Position numbers and translations under genes: made by a program
DNA from: Gemmatimonadota bacterium
Lineage (GTDB): Bacteria > Gemmatimonadota > Gemmatimonadetes > Gemmatimonadales > Gemmatimonadaceae
NCBI GenBank assembly: GCA_021324775.1
Contig: JAJPIM010000042.1
Location: 1-57,022 of the forward strand
DNA: 57,022 bases
Direction of reading: 5' to 3'
Notes under the pieces: generated by a model
Database searches by the model: none
Told to the model about the DNA's origin: nothing
What the model saw: the letters and a program-made list of their open reading frames with translations, nothing else
Shown here: positions 2 through 39,038 of the stretch, piece after piece
Layout of the letters: each line of letters opens with the position of its first letter
How positions within the stretch are numbered: position 1 is the first letter of the stretch

Positions 2-175
2 GAAGCGGACGGCCGCGCGCACCAGCGGCTGCTGCGCGAGTTCCTGGCGGAGCACCTGGGTGATGGCACGGCGATGCGGGCGTTCGATGTGTGGGAGCGA
101 GGCGGATGGCATGCGGCCCCGGGTGCCGGCCCGGTCACGGCCGCGGCCGTTCTAGCTCCGGGCGACGGCGGATGA
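2..175 (+). CDS. C-terminal end of a protein, possibly RecO (partial)
   Basis: An open frame enters from the left edge and stops with TGA, which overlaps the selB ATG as ATGA, so the two genes are probably translationally coupled. The visible 57 residues contain [16 protein letters not shown] and [11 protein letters not shown]. The pattern of an Arg-Leu-Leu helix followed by a short 'F..WERG.W' end resembles the C-terminus of the recombination mediator RecO in related phyla, which I recall rather than can align. It does not resemble the SelA C-terminus, which would be the other expected neighbour of selB. Only the last exon-sized piece is visible, so the name is tentative. Confidence 0.45.
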
Positions 176-2061
176 TCCTGGGCACGGCCGGCCACATCGA
201 CCACGGCAAGACGGCATTGGTCAAAGCGCTCACCGGGATCGATACCGACCGGTTGCCGGAAGAGCAGCGGCGCGGGATCACGATCGAGCTTGGGTTTGCT
301 CCGCTGCGGCTGGGGAAGGCCGGCACCATCGGCGTCGTCGACGTGCCTGGCCATGAAGCATTCGTCCGAACGATGCTCGCCGGGGCGTCCGGCATCGACC
401 TGGCACTCCTTGTGATTGCCGCGGACGAGGGCGTCATGCCGCAGACGCGTGAGCACCTGGCGATTCTGGATCTGCTCGCGGTGCGCGCCGGGGTCGTGGC
501 AGTCACCAAGTCCGACCTGGTCGACGCGGATTGGATGGAGCTCGTGCGGGAGGACGTGACGGGATTGGTCGCCGGTACCGGGCTCGCGCGTGCGGCCATC
601 GTACCGGTCTCGGCCACCACGGGTTCCGGGATGGATGCGCTTCGCGAAGCGCTCGCCGCGGCGGTCGCGGCAGTGCCATCACGAGACAGCGCGGACCTGT
701 TCCGTCTGCCTGTGGACCGGAGCTTCACGATCAAGGGCACCGGCACGGTGGTTACCGGGACCGTGTGGACCGGCCAGCTCGGGATCGACGAAGTCGTGCG
801 CATCCTGCCTGGCAGCCGTACGGCCCGGGTGCGCGGGCTGCAATCGCACGGCCAGGCGGTGAGAGCGATCGCTCCTGGGATGCGCGCCGCCGTAAGTCTC
901 GCGGGCATAGAACGAGGCGATGTCGCCCGCGGGTGCACGCTTGTCACCGACGCGGCCTGGAATGCGTCCACGCGTCTCAGGGCGGACGTCGCGCTCCTTG
1001 CCGGCGCGCGGCCGATCGGTCCCCGGACGCGCATCCGATTCCACCTTGGCACACAGGATGTGTCGGGTCGGGTCGTGGCAACGGGTGGCGCACTGAGTGC
1101 GGGCGAACTCACGCCGGCCCGAGTGGTGCTCGATGAGCCCGTCATCGCCCGCGGGGGGGATCGGTTCGTGATCCGGTCCGGATCACCCGCGGCGACCGTA
1201 GGCGGAGGCGTGGTCACCGACCCGCTGCCGGGTTATCGCCGCCTCAAGCCGTGGCCGGATGCGGCGCCCTCGCCTGCAGAGCGGATCGTGCTCATCGCGC
1301 GCGACGTGGGCGGCCGGGGGGTGCCGCGGGCGTCACTCCCAGTCCGGATCGGATCGCGGCCAGCCGATGTCGAACGCGATCTCGCGGACGCGGCGGACCG
1401 TATCGACGTGATTGGCGACACCCTGTACGAGCGCGGTGTCGTGGCGCACGCGACGGAGCAGATCCTGGCGGCGGTCGATGCGCACCATGCGCGCGCGCCA
1501 CTCGAGCCGGGCATGTCGCTGCAATCCGCCCGGGCGGCGAATCCGGCAGGGGCGGTGCTGGCCGAGGCGGTGATTGCGCGGCTGGAGGAGGCCGGCACGA
1601 TCGTGACCGACCACGGGGTGGTGCGGCGGGCTGGCTGGATGCCGCGTCCGTCGGCGGCTCAGCAGTCGGAGCTGGAGCGTCTCACCGCAACGATTCGGGG
1701 TGCCGGCCGCGAGCCTCCATCGGCCAGCGAACTGGCCCTCAGCGGCGTAGGTCAGACAGAGTCGGATGTGCTGACACTTTTACGATTGTTAGATCGTAGG
1801 GGTGTGGTGCGGCAGGTCGAGCCGAATCGCTTCTATTCGGTGGAAGCGTTGCGGGCGATGGCCGAGGCGCTCAGAACGGGGATGCAGGCGGGCCAGGAAT
1901 ATGGGCCTGCGGAACTTCGAGCATTTGTGGGGGTTTCGCGGAAGTATCTGATTCCGCTGCTGGAGTACTACGACCGGGTGGGAGTGACCGATCGGCGAGG
2001 GCAGGGCCGGGTCGTTCGGCAGGCTGGGTCAGGAGCGTCCCCGGGCGTTCCCGGGGCGTGA
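172..2061 (+). CDS. selB: Selenocysteine-specific translation elongation factor SelB
   Basis: A 629-residue GTPase that delivers Sec-tRNA(Sec) to UGA codons marked by a SECIS hairpin. The ATG at 172 starts [20 protein letters not shown], placing the P-loop (GHIDHGKT) at residues 7-14. G3 is DVPGHE, and G4 is the SelB form TKSD. The EF-Tu-like domains ([16 protein letters not shown], about residue 185) follow, then a long C-terminal half made of winged-helix repeats that in this family bind the SECIS loop. An upstream in-frame ATG at 91 would add 27 basic residues before the P-loop and was rejected. The start overlaps the stop of the preceding gene. Its evident client here is the UGA-containing formate dehydrogenase at 32.8 kb. 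selA, selD and selC are not in the window. Confidence 0.96.
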
Positions 2062-10935: not shown

Positions 10936-11025
10936 GGACGGGTGGCCGAGTGGTTGAAGGCACCGGTCTCGAAAACCGGCATACCGGTGAACCCGGTATC
11001 GTGAGTTCGAATCTCACCCCGTCCG
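10936..11025 (+). tRNA. tRNA-Ser (anticodon CGA)
   Basis: A 90-base class II tRNA. Acceptor stem GGACGGG pairs with CCCGTCC plus discriminator G. D-arm TGGCCGAGTGG, then anticodon stem CCGGT/ACCGG with loop CTCGAAA giving CGA. It has a long variable arm ATACCGG...CCGGTAT and T-arm GTGAG-TTCGAAT-CTCAC. CCA is not encoded. It reads UCG codons. Confidence 0.95.
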
Positions 11026-14395: not shown

Positions 14396-14482
14396 GGACG
14401 GGTGGCCGAGCGGTTTAAGGCGCACGCCTGGAAAGCGTGTGGGGCCGAAAGGCTCTCGTGAGTTCGAATCTCACTCCGTCCG
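14396..14482 (+). tRNA. tRNA-Ser (anticodon GGA)
   Basis: An 87-base class II tRNA. GGACGGG at the 5' end pairs with TCCGTCC (one G-T pair), discriminator G. Anticodon stem CACGC/GCGTG encloses loop CTGGAAA, anticodon GGA, reading UCC/UCU. T-arm GTGAG-TTCGAAT-CTCAC. Its 3' half is repeated in damaged form at about 16.26 and 17.82 kb, marking it as an integration target. Confidence 0.96.
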
Positions 14483-17326: not shown

Positions 17327-17626
17327 ATGCGCGAAGAGGAGTTCAGGCAGCGGCACTGGCACATCACAGGGCGATTCGTCAAGCATGAGGCGAGTTGGGA
17401 CGAACTCTGGCGGACCTTCTGCTTTGGATTCTACACGGATGAAACGCCGGATGGTCTGTCAGGCCCGATTGCGAAGTTCTGGGATGAGATTTATGAGCTG
17501 GTGTACATGTCGCAGCCTGGAACGCCATTTTCAGAAGATCGAGCTGTGGGGCTGATGGGTGAGGAAGAACTCCGCGAGGTGCTGGCGCGGTACCTAGCCC
17601 GCAGTGTGACCGAGGAATCGATCTGA
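17327..17626 (+). CDS. Small acidic unknown protein in the island
   Basis: 99 residues beginning MREEEFRQRHWHITGRFVKH and containing FGFYTDETPDG, AKFWDEIYELVYMSQPG and a Glu-rich helical end (MGEEELREVLARYLARSVTEE). Small size, acidity, many aromatic residues and the position behind another orphan gene in a mobile region recall immunity or antitoxin proteins, but no family was recognised and this is only a suggestion. There is no obvious ribosome site in front of its ATG. It lies about 107 bases after the preceding gene, same strand. Confidence 0.5.
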   Translation: MREEEFRQRHWHITGRFVKHEASWDELWRTFCFGFYTDETPDGLSGPIAKFWDEIYELVYMSQPGTPFSEDRAVGLMGEEELREVLARYLARSVTEESI

Positions 17627-32790: not shown

Positions 32791-35700
32791 ATGTCTTCAA
32801 CGCTGACTCGCCGCCAGTTCCTGCAGCGGACGGGGCTCGCCACCGGAGGCGCCGCGCTTGGCAGCCTCGTGGCACTCGGACTGGATCCCGAGCCTGTGCG
32901 TGCCGCCACCGTCCCGCTCGACTGGAAGCTCGCCGAGACCAAAACGGTCCCGTCGGTGTGTCCATACTGCGCCGTCGGGTGCGGTACTCTCCTCTCCTCT
33001 CGCAACGGCAAACTCGTCAACGTCGAGGGGAATCCCGACTCGCCGATCAATCACGGTACCCTCTGTCCCAAGGGCGCGAGCAGCTTCCAGCTCACGGTCA
33101 ACCCCGAGCGACAGAAGACCTGTCTCTATCGTCGTCCCGGTGGGACCGCGTGGGAACCGATCGAGCTCGAAAAGGCGATGGACATGATCGCCGACCGCGT
33201 GAAAAAAACGCGCGATCAGACCTTCAAGCAGACAGCGGAGATCAACGGCCGCACGGTCACCGTCAATAACTGCCTCGGCATCGCATCACTCGGCGGCGCA
33301 ACGCTCGAGAACGAATGGAACTACGCCCACTTGAAGCTCTGGCGCGGGCTCGGCGGGGTCTTTCTCGAGAATCAGGCCAGGATATGACACTCCGCCACCG
33401 TCCCCGGTCTGGGGACGTCGTTCGGCCGGGGCGGGGCCACCATGTTCCAGCAGGATCTGCAGAACGCGGATTGCATCATCGTCATGGGGTCCAACATGGC
33501 GGAATGCCATCCAGTTGGATTCCGCTGGGTGATGAAGGCGCGCGAACGCGGTGCGACCATCATCCACATCGACCCCCGGTTCACGCGGACGAGCGCGATG
33601 TCCAACCAGCACGTCGCCATCCGCTCGGGCTCCGACATTGCGTTTCTTGGCGGACTCGTCAACTACATCATTCAACACGACCGGTGGTTCAAGGAATACG
33701 TTCACGCATACACCAACGCGTCGACGATCGTAGGTCCTGATTTCAAGGACACGGAAGAGCTGGATGGGCTCTTCTCGGGGTTCGATCCCGCGAAGCGCGC
33801 GTACACGACGACCTCGTGGGCGTACGATGGGACGCTTGCACCGCCGGCACCGGCAGGAAGCTCGACGAACCAGAACGGCGCGCACGCGCCGCCAGCCGCG
33901 CCCAAGCCGGCCGTGGACTTCCGCGTCCGCCCGCCGCATACCGATCCCACGCTTCAGCATCCGCGCTGCGTCTTCCAGATCCTGAAGCGCCATTACGCCC
34001 GCTACACGCCCGAGATGGTGTCGCGGGTATGCGGGTGTTCGCCGGAGGAATTCGAGCGGGTCGCCAAGACACTGTGCGATAACTCGGGACGCGAGCGAAC
34101 GTCATCGTTCTGCTACGCGGTTGGCTGGACCCAGCATACCGTGGGCGTGCAATACATCCGCACCGCGAGCATCGTCCAGGCGCTGCTCGGCAACATGGGA
34201 CGTCCGGGCGGCGGCATCCTCGCGCTCCGCGGGCACGCGTCGATCCAGGGCTCGACCGACGTGCCGACGCTCTACCATCTGCTGCCGGGCTACCTCCCCA
34301 GTCCGAGCGCCGCGGCCCCGCAGCACGATACGCTCGATGGGTGGGTCGCCAACACGATGCCCACGACGGGGTGGTGGGCGAACGGGCGCAAATACATGGT
34401 GTCGCTCCTCAAGATGTGGTATGGCGACGCGGCGACGCCGGACAACCAGTGGGGCTACGAGTTCCTGCCCAAGTCGGTCGGCGACCACTCGCACATCCCG
34501 ATGTTCAAGGCAATGAGCGACGATGTGGTCAAAGGGTTCATGTGCATCGGGCAGAACCCAGCGGCCGGCGGCCAGAACGCGATCTACAATCGGGCCGCGA
34601 TGGCACACCTCGACTGGTTCGTCGTGCGTGATCTCTTCCGCATCGAGACCGCGGAGTTCTGGAAGGCACCGGACATCCCGGACCCGTCCGTGATCAAGAC
34701 CGAGGTCTTCTTCCTCCCGTCAACGTCCGTCACCGAGTCGGACGGGTCGTTCACGAATACGCAGCGGATGCTGCAGTGGCACGACAAGGGCGCCGAACCC
34801 ACCGGCGACTGCCGGTCGGACCTCTGGTTCAGCCACCATTTGTACAAGCGGCTCCGCAAGCTCTATGAGGGATCGACCGACCCCAAAGACGCCGGATTCC
34901 TGGCCATGACCTGGAATCTCGATGTCGAAGGCCCGATGCAGGAGCCCAAAGCCGTCGACGTGCTGGCCGAGATCAACGGCTGGACCACGGCCGATCGCGT
35001 GCCGGTGAAGACGTTCCTCGATTTGAAGGATGATGGATCGACATCGTGCGGTGTCTGGATCTATACGGGCGTCGCTCCCGCCCCAGGGGTGAACAAGGCG
35101 CGGGCCCGTGTCGCCGATGCCTATACGTCACTCGGTTGGGGGTATGCGTGGCCAGCGAACCGCCGCACGCTGTACAATCGGGCCAGCGCCGACCCCGAGG
35201 GGAAGCCGTGGTCCGAGCGCAAACGCTACGTGTGGTGGGACGAGACGCAGAAGAAGTGGGTGGGGTACGACGTGCCCGATTACCCGGCCACCAAGGCGCC
35301 ATCGTCCAAGGGCGACTGGGCCAAGGGCGGCATGGACGCGCTCGACGGCTCGACCGCCTTCATCATGCAGCGGGATGGCAAGGCCTGGCTCTTTGCGCCG
35401 AGCGGGATCGTGGATGGGCCGTTGCCGGCGCACTACGAGCCGTGGGAGACGGGGGTCAAGAACCCCCTCTATGGCACCCAGGCGAACCCGGTGGCGAAGG
35501 TCTGGAACATCGTCGGCAATCGCTACATCGATGCCGGCGACCCGAACTACCCGATCATCATCACGACCTACCGGCTCACCGAGCACCACCTGAGCGGGCC
35601 CATGAGCCGATGGTCACCATGGCTCACCGAGCTGCAGCCGGAGATGTTCATCGAGATCTCGCCCGAGCTGGCGGCTGAGAAGGGGATCGAGAACGCCGGA

Positions 35701-36108
35701 TGGTGTACCGTGTACACGCCGCGCGCGGCGATCGAGTGCAAGACACTCGTCACGCGCCGAATGCGGCCGTTCACGATCGCCGGGCAGCGCATCCATCAGG
35801 CGGGCGCGCCATTCCACTGGTCGTGGGCCGGCGTGGTGACGGGTGGGAACGCGAACGACCTGATCGCCCTCGTCGCCGATCCCAACGTGACGATCCACGA
35901 AGGGAAAGCCTTCATGTGCCAGATTGTCGCCGGGCGTAAGCAGGCCGAGATCCTGGCGAAGCTACCCGATCAGACGCGCCCGCTTCCGTTGGTGGGTCGC
36001 CGCGAGAAACGGGCCGCCGAGTCAGCCATCGACGAGGGGATCGAGCTGGCCGAGCGCGTCGGACAATACTTGCCGCTCGACCACCCCGAGGGAGTCTATC
36101 ATGGCTAA
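32791..36108 (+). CDS. fdnG: Selenocysteine-containing formate dehydrogenase, catalytic (alpha) subunit
   Basis: One gene interrupted in naive translation by TGA at 33385-33387, read as Sec199; the total is 1105 residues. A Tat signal is at the start (TRRQFLQRTG, RR at 7-8). The [4Fe-4S] site is CPYCAVGCG plus LCPKG (Cys57, 60, 64, 92). Around the Sec the order is ENQARI-U-HSATVPGLGTSFGRGG, followed by NADCIIVMGSNMAECHPVGF, exactly the arrangement in E. coli FdnG/FdoG (Sec196, with the His next to it). The downstream molybdopterin domains (AVGWTQHTVG, NMGRPGGGI, GQNPAAGGQN, WSWAGVVTGGNANDL) are complete. It oxidises formate at the periplasmic face with a Mo/W-bis-MGD cofactor. It overlaps the beta subunit gene by 8 bases. 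Confidence 0.96.
33385..33417 (+). promoter_or_regulatory. Sec UGA codon and SECIS hairpin
   Basis: TGA at 33385-33387, then an 11-base spacer and a perfect 7-bp stem: CGTCCCC (33399-33405) with GGGGACG (33411-33417). The loop is GGTCT (33406-33410). The apical loop of the E. coli fdhF SECIS, which SelB recognises, likewise contains GGUCU, at a similar distance from the UGA. The hairpin lies in coding sequence and encodes TVPGLGT. Confidence 0.88.
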
Positions 36109-36913
36109 GGGGTTCTACACCGACACCACCGCGTGCATCGGCTGCAAGGCATGTCAGGTCGCGTGTCATCAGTGGAACGACATCCCGGCCGCGGAGGGAG
36201 GACGGACGGAGCTCAGCGGCGACTCGTACGACAACACCCAAACGCTGTCGGCTGAGAACTGGCGGCACGTGAAGTTCATCGAGCAGATCACTGAGGACCG
36301 GACCCAGGAGGGATTCCTGCAGGGGTCGCGGTGGCTCATGATGTCGGATGTCTGCAAGCACTGCGTGCACGCGGCATGTCTCGAAGTGTGCCCCACCGGC
36401 GCGATCATCCGGACCGAGTTCGACTCCGTCTTCATCCAGCAGGACGCGTGCAACGGATGCCGCGCCTGTGTGGCGGCGTGCCCCTTCGGCGTCGTCGACA
36501 TCGGCCGCGATGGCAAAGCCCACAAGTGCACGATGTGCTACGACCGGCTGCAGAACGGCCGCGAGCCGGCTTGCGCCCAGGCGTGCCCGACGGAGTCGAT
36601 CCGGTTCGGTGACATCCCGGATCTCATGAAGCTGGCCGACGCGCGGGTCGCGCAGCTCAAGGAGCAGCACATCGACGCCTACGTCTACGGCAAGGAAGAC
36701 ATCGTCGGCGGGCTCAACGCGTTCTATGTGCTGGTCGATGAACCTCACGTCTACGGTCTGCCGGAGAAGCCCGAGTTGGGGTCCAAGAACGTCGACGAGG
36801 GGTTCGCGCTGAGCGGTGTCGCGGCGGCCGCGTTGGCCGTCACCGGACTTGTGAGCTTCCGCAAGTCGCGCATGGATGAGAAGGCGGGGGCAGCGACGGA
36901 GGATCATCACTAA
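36101..36913 (+). CDS. fdnH: Formate dehydrogenase iron-sulfur (beta) subunit
   Basis: 270 residues. Four ferredoxin-type [4Fe-4S] motifs: CIGCKACQVACHQW, CKHCVHAACLEVCPTG, CNGCRACVAACPFG and CTMCYDRLQNGREPACAQACPTE. A single membrane helix near the C-terminus (FALSGVAAAALAVTGLVSF) anchors it, as in FdnH. It passes electrons from the catalytic subunit to the membrane subunit. The ATG overlaps the end of the catalytic gene (8 bases, GAGGGAG upstream), and the TAA overlaps the next ATG by one base, so all three are coupled. The start within the longer open frame is fixed by these overlaps. Confidence 0.95.
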   Translation: MAKGFYTDTTACIGCKACQVACHQWNDIPAAEGGRTELSGDSYDNTQTLSAENWRHVKFIEQITEDRTQEGFLQGSRWLMMSDVCKHCVHAACLEVCPTGAIIRTEFDSVFIQQDACNGCRACVAACPFGVVDIGRDGKAHKCTMCYDRLQNGREPACAQACPTESIRFGDIPDLMKLADARVAQLKEQHIDAYVYGKEDIVGGLNAFYVLVDEPHVYGLPEKPELGSKNVDEGFALSGVAAAALAVTGLVSFRKSRMDEKAGAATEDHH

Positions 36914-37935
36914 TGCACCCGGCCCTCCTGCAGATCCTCGCCGCCAATCCGCAGTCCGGCGTGGCGTTGCCGCCTCGGTGGGGGTGGTACGTCATCCTGT
37001 ATTTTTTTCTCGGCGGTCTCGCCGGCGGGCTCTTAGCAATCGCGGCGGCGCTGGACGCGGTGGGGGACGACCGGGACCGCGAGGCCGTGCGGCTCGCGCA
37101 CCGGCTCGCGTTTCCGCTCGTTCTCGTATGCGGGGCGTTGTTGACCATCGACCTGGGCCAGCCGCTCCGCTTCTGGCACATGCTCATCAAGTCCAATCGT
37201 TTCCCCGAACCCCTCCTCAAGCCGTGGTCCCCGATCTCGCTCGGCAGCTGGATCGTCATGGTGTTCGCGATCATCGCGTTCGTCGAGTTTCTCGGTACGC
37301 TGGCCGATGCGCCGGGCGACAATGCTGGCGACGATGTCCTCACGAAGTGGGCGTGGTTGGCCAAATTCCGGCGCGATACGCTCGTTCCTGCTCGTGAGCG
37401 CGTGCGGTCCTGGCCGAGTGCGGTCCACCGCACCTGGCAGGCGCTGGCCGCGCTCGCGGGATTAGCCCTCGCCGGGTACACGGGCGTGCTGGTCACCGGT
37501 ACGAGCCGCGTCGCCTGGCACAACGCGCGTCTCATGGGCGCGCTCTTCCTCCTCTCCGGCGCATCGACCGCCTACGCACTGCTCATGCTGCTGCTCGTTC
37601 GCCGAGGGCGCGGGGCGGCCGACACGACCGTCCGCAAGCTCGGAGCCGCCGACCAGTGGGCCGTCGGGTTCGAACTGCTGGTGCTCGCGCTCATGCTCAT
37701 CTCACTCGGCGCCTTGGGCAGACCGTTCTGGAGCGGCGGCTTCGGGGTGGTGTTCTGGCTGGGTGTCGTCGGCATCGGCCTGATCATTCCGCTGGCGCGG
37801 CACTGGATTGCGCTTGGCCCCGGTGAGCACGGGGTTACGCGCGCAGCGCGCTGTGTCCTGATCGGCGGTTTCCTGCTGCGCGTCGTAATCGTGATGTCGC
37901 CACAGTATCCGGCCGTGCCCCTGTGGCATCTTTAG
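36913..37935 (+). CDS. nrfD: NrfD/PsrC-type membrane quinone-reducing subunit
   Basis: 340 residues, about nine membrane helices. PPRWGWYVILYFFLGGLAGG then LLTIDLGQPLRFWHMLIKSN and LKPWSPISLGSWIVMVFAII are the recurrent NrfD/PsrC motifs, including the conserved Asp/Gln of the quinol site region. The C-terminal half repeats the bundle (HNARLMGALFLLSGASTAYA). It occupies the place of the cytochrome b556 (FdnI) in E. coli formate dehydrogenase-N, so electrons are probably passed to menaquinone without heme. It has no separate promoter. Confidence 0.9.
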   Translation: MHPALLQILAANPQSGVALPPRWGWYVILYFFLGGLAGGLLAIAAALDAVGDDRDREAVRLAHRLAFPLVLVCGALLTIDLGQPLRFWHMLIKSNRFPEPLLKPWSPISLGSWIVMVFAIIAFVEFLGTLADAPGDNAGDDVLTKWAWLAKFRRDTLVPARERVRSWPSAVHRTWQALAALAGLALAGYTGVLVTGTSRVAWHNARLMGALFLLSGASTAYALLMLLLVRRGRGAADTTVRKLGAADQWAVGFELLVLALMLISLGALGRPFWSGGFGVVFWLGVVGIGLIIPLARHWIALGPGEHGVTRAARCVLIGGFLLRVVIVMSPQYPAVPLWHL

Positions 37936-38207: not shown

Positions 38208-39038
38208 ATGGCGGTGCATGACGGGCTGCGTCCGGCGAGTGCCGTCGTGCGGGCGCTCGCCGCCGAGGTGTCTCGCCGGTCCGAGGGGGTAGCTGCGCGC
38301 TGGCCCGACGGTGTACCGGACCTATTGGCCGCCAAGACTCGGCTCGCCGCGGGAGTCACCGCGCTGGAGGGCGAGCCGTTGCTCGATGGCGCGGAGCTCC
38401 TGCGCGGAGGCCGAGCGCTTGCCGCGGCGGTCGAGGCGGTGGAACCAGCAGTGGGTCAAACAATGCTGGCCATCGTAGAACGGCTCGAGGGGCTGGACGA
38501 GCATTCGCTCAATGAGCTTGCGCGAGCAGCGCTTGCCGGTGCGTGGGAGCCGTGCGCGTCCCTGGCCTCGATACTCGGCCTGGATGAGTACGCGCTCGTT
38601 TCGGTGGTCGATTACGCTGCGCGACCGGCTCTCGTAGCGGCGGCGAGACGCGTGGAGCATCTGCTCACATCGTACGATCGGGCATCCTCGCACTGTCCGG
38701 TCTGCGGCTCGTCCCCGCTCCTGGCCGAGCTCTCGGGAAAAGAGGCTGCGCGGTCGCTCCGCTGTGGCCGGTGTGGCGCGCGCTGGCGATACCCGCGGCT
38801 CGCGTGCGCGTGGTGCGGCGAACGGGACCATCACGCACTGAGCGCGCTCCACGGCGAGGGCGAGGCGGGTGTCCGGCAAGCCGACTGCTGCAGTACCTGC
38901 CACGGCTATCTCAAGGCCGTCTCAGTGCTGGATCCGCTCGACTATGTCTCGCTCCTGAAGACCGACATCGAGACCGCGGGGCTGGATCTCGTGGCGGTGG
39001 ACCGTGGATACGCGCGAGGAACCGGCCAGCGCGCGTAG
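38208..39038 (+). CDS. fdhE: Formate dehydrogenase accessory protein FdhE
   Basis: 276 residues. The N-terminal half is helical, and the C-terminal half carries four zinc/rubredoxin-type Cys pairs: HCPVCGSSPLLAEL, RCGRCGARWRYPRLACAWCG and CCSTCHGYLKAVSVLDPL, in the order seen in FdhE. FdhE is needed for formation of active Tat-exported formate dehydrogenases and binds the catalytic subunit through its Cys motifs. Adjacent placement to the three structural genes supports the call. FdhD, the sulfurtransferase, is not in the window. Confidence 0.93.
   Translation: MAVHDGLRPASAVVRALAAEVSRRSEGVAARWPDGVPDLLAAKTRLAAGVTALEGEPLLDGAELLRGGRALAAAVEAVEPAVGQTMLAIVERLEGLDEHSLNELARAALAGAWEPCASLASILGLDEYALVSVVDYAARPALVAAARRVEHLLTSYDRASSHCPVCGSSPLLAELSGKEAARSLRCGRCGARWRYPRLACAWCGERDHHALSALHGEGEAGVRQADCCSTCHGYLKAVSVLDPLDYVSLLKTDIETAGLDLVAVDRGYARGTGQRA

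Follow-up and report, generated by a model that had tools for sequence, protein, structure and literature searches.

A formate dehydrogenase gene with an in-frame UGA probably read as selenocysteine, in an operon with an NrfD-type membrane subunit

A formate dehydrogenase operon with an in-frame TGA

The window (the whole stretch of 57,022 nucleotides that was analysed) encoded on its forward strand for an fdnG-like formate dehydrogenase alpha subunit (fdhA, 32791..36108), which begins with an ATG at 32791, ends with a stop codon at 36106-36108 and carries a TGA at 33385-33387 in frame with this ATG. Read through this codon, the gene encodes a protein of 1105 aa with selenocysteine (Sec) at position 199 and a Tat-type N-terminus (TRRQFLQR). 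The 906 codons 3' of the TGA are open, and the chance of this from base composition alone is about 2e-10. In profile searches the read-through protein matched its nearest curated model, NF041513 (formate_DH_Act), in one stretch across the TGA (1503.2 bits, cut-off 1400) and TIGR01553 with 1013.7 bits (curated cut-off 814.2); the domains PF04879 (Fe4S4), PF00384 (molybdopterin) and PF01568 (molybdopterin-dinucleotide) were all above cut-off. The initial annotation had proposed that reading through the TGA joins two halves of one FdnG-like protein with Sec199, and that a naive annotation would split the gene with a second piece from 33442; the family match across the TGA bore out the former, and the start of the second open reading frame was found at that position.

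Codon 199 (forward strand, context NQARI-U-HSATV) aligned opposite the modified residue X, which is Sec, in chain A of the D. gigas structure PDB 1h0h. The flanks were identical (QARI-x-HSATV). The codon is followed by His, as in Sec formate dehydrogenases. The motif of the alpha protein reads UHSA in place of the tabulated UHxP (PMC13188914); since the D. gigas enzyme also has HSAT after its Sec, the Pro of UHxP is common but not required.

The end of the alpha gene is overlapped by 8 bases by a gene for a formate dehydrogenase beta subunit of the 4Fe-4S ferredoxin type (36101..36913). It is followed on the same strand by genes for an NrfD-type integral membrane subunit (36913..37935; PF03916, 100.8 bits) and for an FdhE-like formate dehydrogenase accessory protein (38208..39038), which scored under the NCBIfam cut-off and just over the Pfam FdhE_C cut-off. 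No cytochrome b match was found for the third gene of the operon, and its product is not the FdnI-type membrane subunit of the fdnGHI operon. The earlier description of a full Sec-type respiratory formate dehydrogenase operon thus held as far as alpha, beta, membrane and FdhE-like genes are concerned, but the membrane subunit is NrfD-like and not FdnI-like. Together with the twin-arginine type N-terminus of the alpha subunit, this gene content fits a respiratory formate dehydrogenase that faces the periplasm and is anchored by NrfD instead of FdnI.

A hairpin (33399..33417, forward strand; CGTCCCC-GGTCT-GGGGACG in the DNA) starts 11 nt 3' of the TGA, as the initial annotation had described. 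Published models of the bacterial SECIS element call for a short apical loop with G first, a stem of 4-16 bp and a distance of 16-37 nt from UGA to loop (PMC13188914). The apical hairpin found here agreed with all four published constraints, having a 5-nt loop (GGUCU) with G first, a stem of 7 bp (CGUCCCC/GGGGACG), 18 nt from UGA to loop, and an energy of -13.7 kcal/mol where -7.5 is required. Rfam SECIS_3 matched it below threshold (18.8 vs 63 bits). The fold of the 46-nt stretch was not unusually stable for GC-rich DNA when compared with shuffles (z -0.26), and synonymous recoding of the site yielded both hairpin and loop in about 2% of cases; the single sequence is therefore only suggestive. 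We take the significance of the hairpin to lie in its conservation across species and not in this one sequence.

Selenocysteine machinery and a second formate dehydrogenase

The gene selB, for the Sec-specific elongation factor with its winged-helix SECIS-binding domain, was located at 172..2061 on the forward strand (about 339-341 bits, over the cut-off), on the same contig about 31 kb from the formate dehydrogenase gene and outside the operon. With this match, the positions given earlier for TGA, hairpin and selB were all confirmed. Whether selA, selC and selD are present, on which the initial annotation had made its reading depend, was answered by a search of the genome (46 contigs, 98% complete). 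It encoded selA on contig C32 (541 bits), a tRNA-Sec gene with UCA anticodon on contig C33 (72.5 bits) and, adjoining the latter, selD (370 bits), so that with selB the Sec-decoding trait (selA, selB, selC, selD) is complete. Some 130 bases separate the tRNA-Sec gene from selD, which has the same orientation (C33:24720-25874); selA and selB map to contigs other than C33. The window itself also contains two tRNA-Ser genes (10936-11025 and 14396-14482, anticodons CGA and GGA), neither of which is tRNA-Sec.

A second Sec formate dehydrogenase was encoded at C20:17159-19108 (L036:7160-9109), with a TGA at 17408, the motif UHAPSV and the same GGUCU SECIS. This gene is split: it matched only positions 53-671 of TIGR01591, and positions 1-51 (the Fe4S4 domain) form the C-terminal end of a NuoG/HoxU-like protein (C20:21035-22162), whose gene lies two genes downstream and follows a NuoE-NuoF fusion. 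Four further loci (L118, L119, L120 and L121) showed this separation of the Fe4S4 domain too, and a short literature search found no split formate dehydrogenase. One genome, G037 (95% complete), carries a TGA copy of the second formate dehydrogenase (L121, contig C98), and neither tRNA-Sec nor an over-cut-off selA was found in it. Probably the sequence is missing or was misbinned; the L121 contig is only 5.6 kb long. As there is a second Sec formate dehydrogenase in the genome, the alpha gene at 32791 is not the sole reason for keeping the Sec machinery. Other selenoproteins were sought via the SECIS pattern and model only, and the list of two may accordingly be incomplete.

Conservation of codon and hairpin among relatives

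A strong homologue of the alpha gene was found in 33 out of 298 genomes from the phylum. Two congeneric genomes had none at E 1e-150, and the nearest copies (70-71%) belong to another family of the order, which makes transfer or repeated loss likely. Of the named relatives, the closest was a genome from the Gemmatimonadales, with 69% in its best segment, and the probable assignment of the window to the phylum is based on this match. Such patchiness might speak for a recent relic that has given up Sec decoding, or for an enzyme whose main work is the reduction of CO2 or the conversion of some other substrate and not respiratory formate oxidation. We regard this as improbable, given that the frame of 1105 codons, the operon, and the SECIS with its machinery are all intact.

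For Sec decoding at codon 199, the comparison of related sequences gave strong evidence. Among near relatives (at least 54% identity) in which the site could be read, every copy had TGA except the one in G033. All 24 distinct Sec-type sites wrote the Gly-Leu of the loop as GGT-CTG and thus kept the GGUCU loop, while GGT made up only 3-27% of the Gly codons in the genes concerned; relatedness among the sequences inflates this count as well as those for covariation. In 34 sequences drawn from the two Sec formate dehydrogenase families, a six-pair stem was paired in 99% of its cells. Both-sided changes occurred at three of the six pairs (16 cells), a number reached in none of 500 shuffles and compared with at most 8 for slid partners. 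The rival reading as a true nonsense mutation or a sequencing error in a formerly normal gene, which a standard-code gene caller would indeed break here, is refuted by the conservation in independent genomes: the same TGA stands at the same codon in all but one of the near relatives read, the long frame beyond it is open, and the conserved loop is maintained by a rare codon. Its probability seems to us negligible beside that of a Sec codon.

A covariance model of the element, built from these 34 sequences, found two strong places in the genome of the window (60.7 and 58.9 bits), which are the two formate dehydrogenase sites, the next match being at 22.4 bits; the sequences used for building the model match it by construction, and the informative part is only the absence of further strong places. 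In four genomes without detected tRNA-Sec the model gave weak matches or none.

The exceptional copy in G033 (L048) has TGC (Cys) at the Sec position and spells Pro-Gly-Leu-Gly as CCC-GGA-CTC-GGC, so that the protein is kept and the hairpin is lost by synonymous changes. Neither tRNA-Sec (at E 1e-9) nor selA was found in this genome. Because this Cys form keeps the residues and recodes the loop synonymously, selection on the RNA, and not on the protein, appears to maintain the loop. A UAG-Sec codon in G033 was considered and rejected, the Sec position being TGC and the TAG lying elsewhere in the open frame. A more distant Cys form (HARICHSSTV, 44% identity) was found in G247 (L122), whose genome has tRNA-Sec. 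Most genomes with the TGA form also have tRNA-Sec; none was found at the strict setting in G265, which has a TGA copy, and a gap in the assembly is the most likely cause. Read-through by another route, such as decoding of UGA as Trp or suppression by a near-cognate tRNA with no Sec involved, has next to no probability in view of the complete selABCD with tRNA-Sec(UCA), a SECIS under selection, and a residue whose counterpart is Sec in the solved homologues and Cys in the exceptions, never Trp.

Proposed decoding and relation to known systems

Homology across the TGA, the SECIS, selABCD, conservation, compensatory changes and the Cys control all agree with the initial reading of this UGA as Sec. 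On this evidence we hold it to be very nearly certain that the TGA at 33385-33387 is a selenocysteine codon, most likely served by standard SelB/SECIS-directed Sec insertion in a respiratory formate dehydrogenase. From established knowledge of these families we infer that Sec is inserted and binds the metal, that the protein is exported and by what route electrons leave it, as follows. SelA would make Sec-tRNA-Sec(UCA) from seryl-tRNA and selenophosphate, the SelD product, and SelB, by its predicted binding to the GGUCU hairpin, would bring it to the ribosome at UGA-199. Sec199 is predicted to ligate the Mo or W of this bis-MGD enzyme. Tat export of the alpha subunit together with the 4Fe-4S beta subunit is probable, and the NrfD-type membrane subunit would hand the electrons on to the quinones.

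For annotation this means that a standard gene caller would break an enzyme of 1105 residues into two pieces and overlook the residue at its active site. The organism is indicated to use selenium for formate metabolism, and among its relatives Sec and Cys versions occur as a natural pair, the one accompanied by SECIS and machinery and the other not. No bacterial selenoprotein is more widespread than the formate dehydrogenase alpha subunit (PMC13188914). In the literature searched, as far as titles, abstracts and one text look-up show, we found no selenoprotein report for Gemmatimonadetes/Gemmatimonadota; the lineage may therefore be undocumented for selenoproteins, but the system itself is standard, well-supported but ordinary. 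We lean towards the view that this lineage, most likely Gemmatimonadota, keeps a Sec trait that two formate dehydrogenase families sustain, of which one is patchy and possibly transferred between families.

The present enzyme resembles the Sec formate dehydrogenases of the FdnG/FdhA type (TIGR01553; 1h0h of D. gigas, the 8cm4/6sdr group, 1kqf for E. coli FdnG) in domains, Sec position and flanks, and shares with them the in-frame UGA followed by a SECIS, the Tat-type signal and the adjoining beta subunit. It differs from them in being nearest to NF041513, in having UHSA for the tabulated UHxP, and in its NrfD-like membrane subunit. The hairpin is like the bSECIS consensus and those of E. coli fdhF and fdnG in its short GGUCU loop with G first and in stem and spacing within range. 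It is unlike the E. coli fdhF SECIS in its perfect 7-bp stem, from which the bulged U of the latter is absent, and it also falls under the gathering threshold of Rfam SECIS_3. Replacement of Sec by Cys in FdhA has been described before (PMC1794560); the G033 copy is like those conversions in being a Cys version in a genome where tRNA-Sec and selA were not found, and unlike them in that the hairpin is lost and not kept as a remnant.
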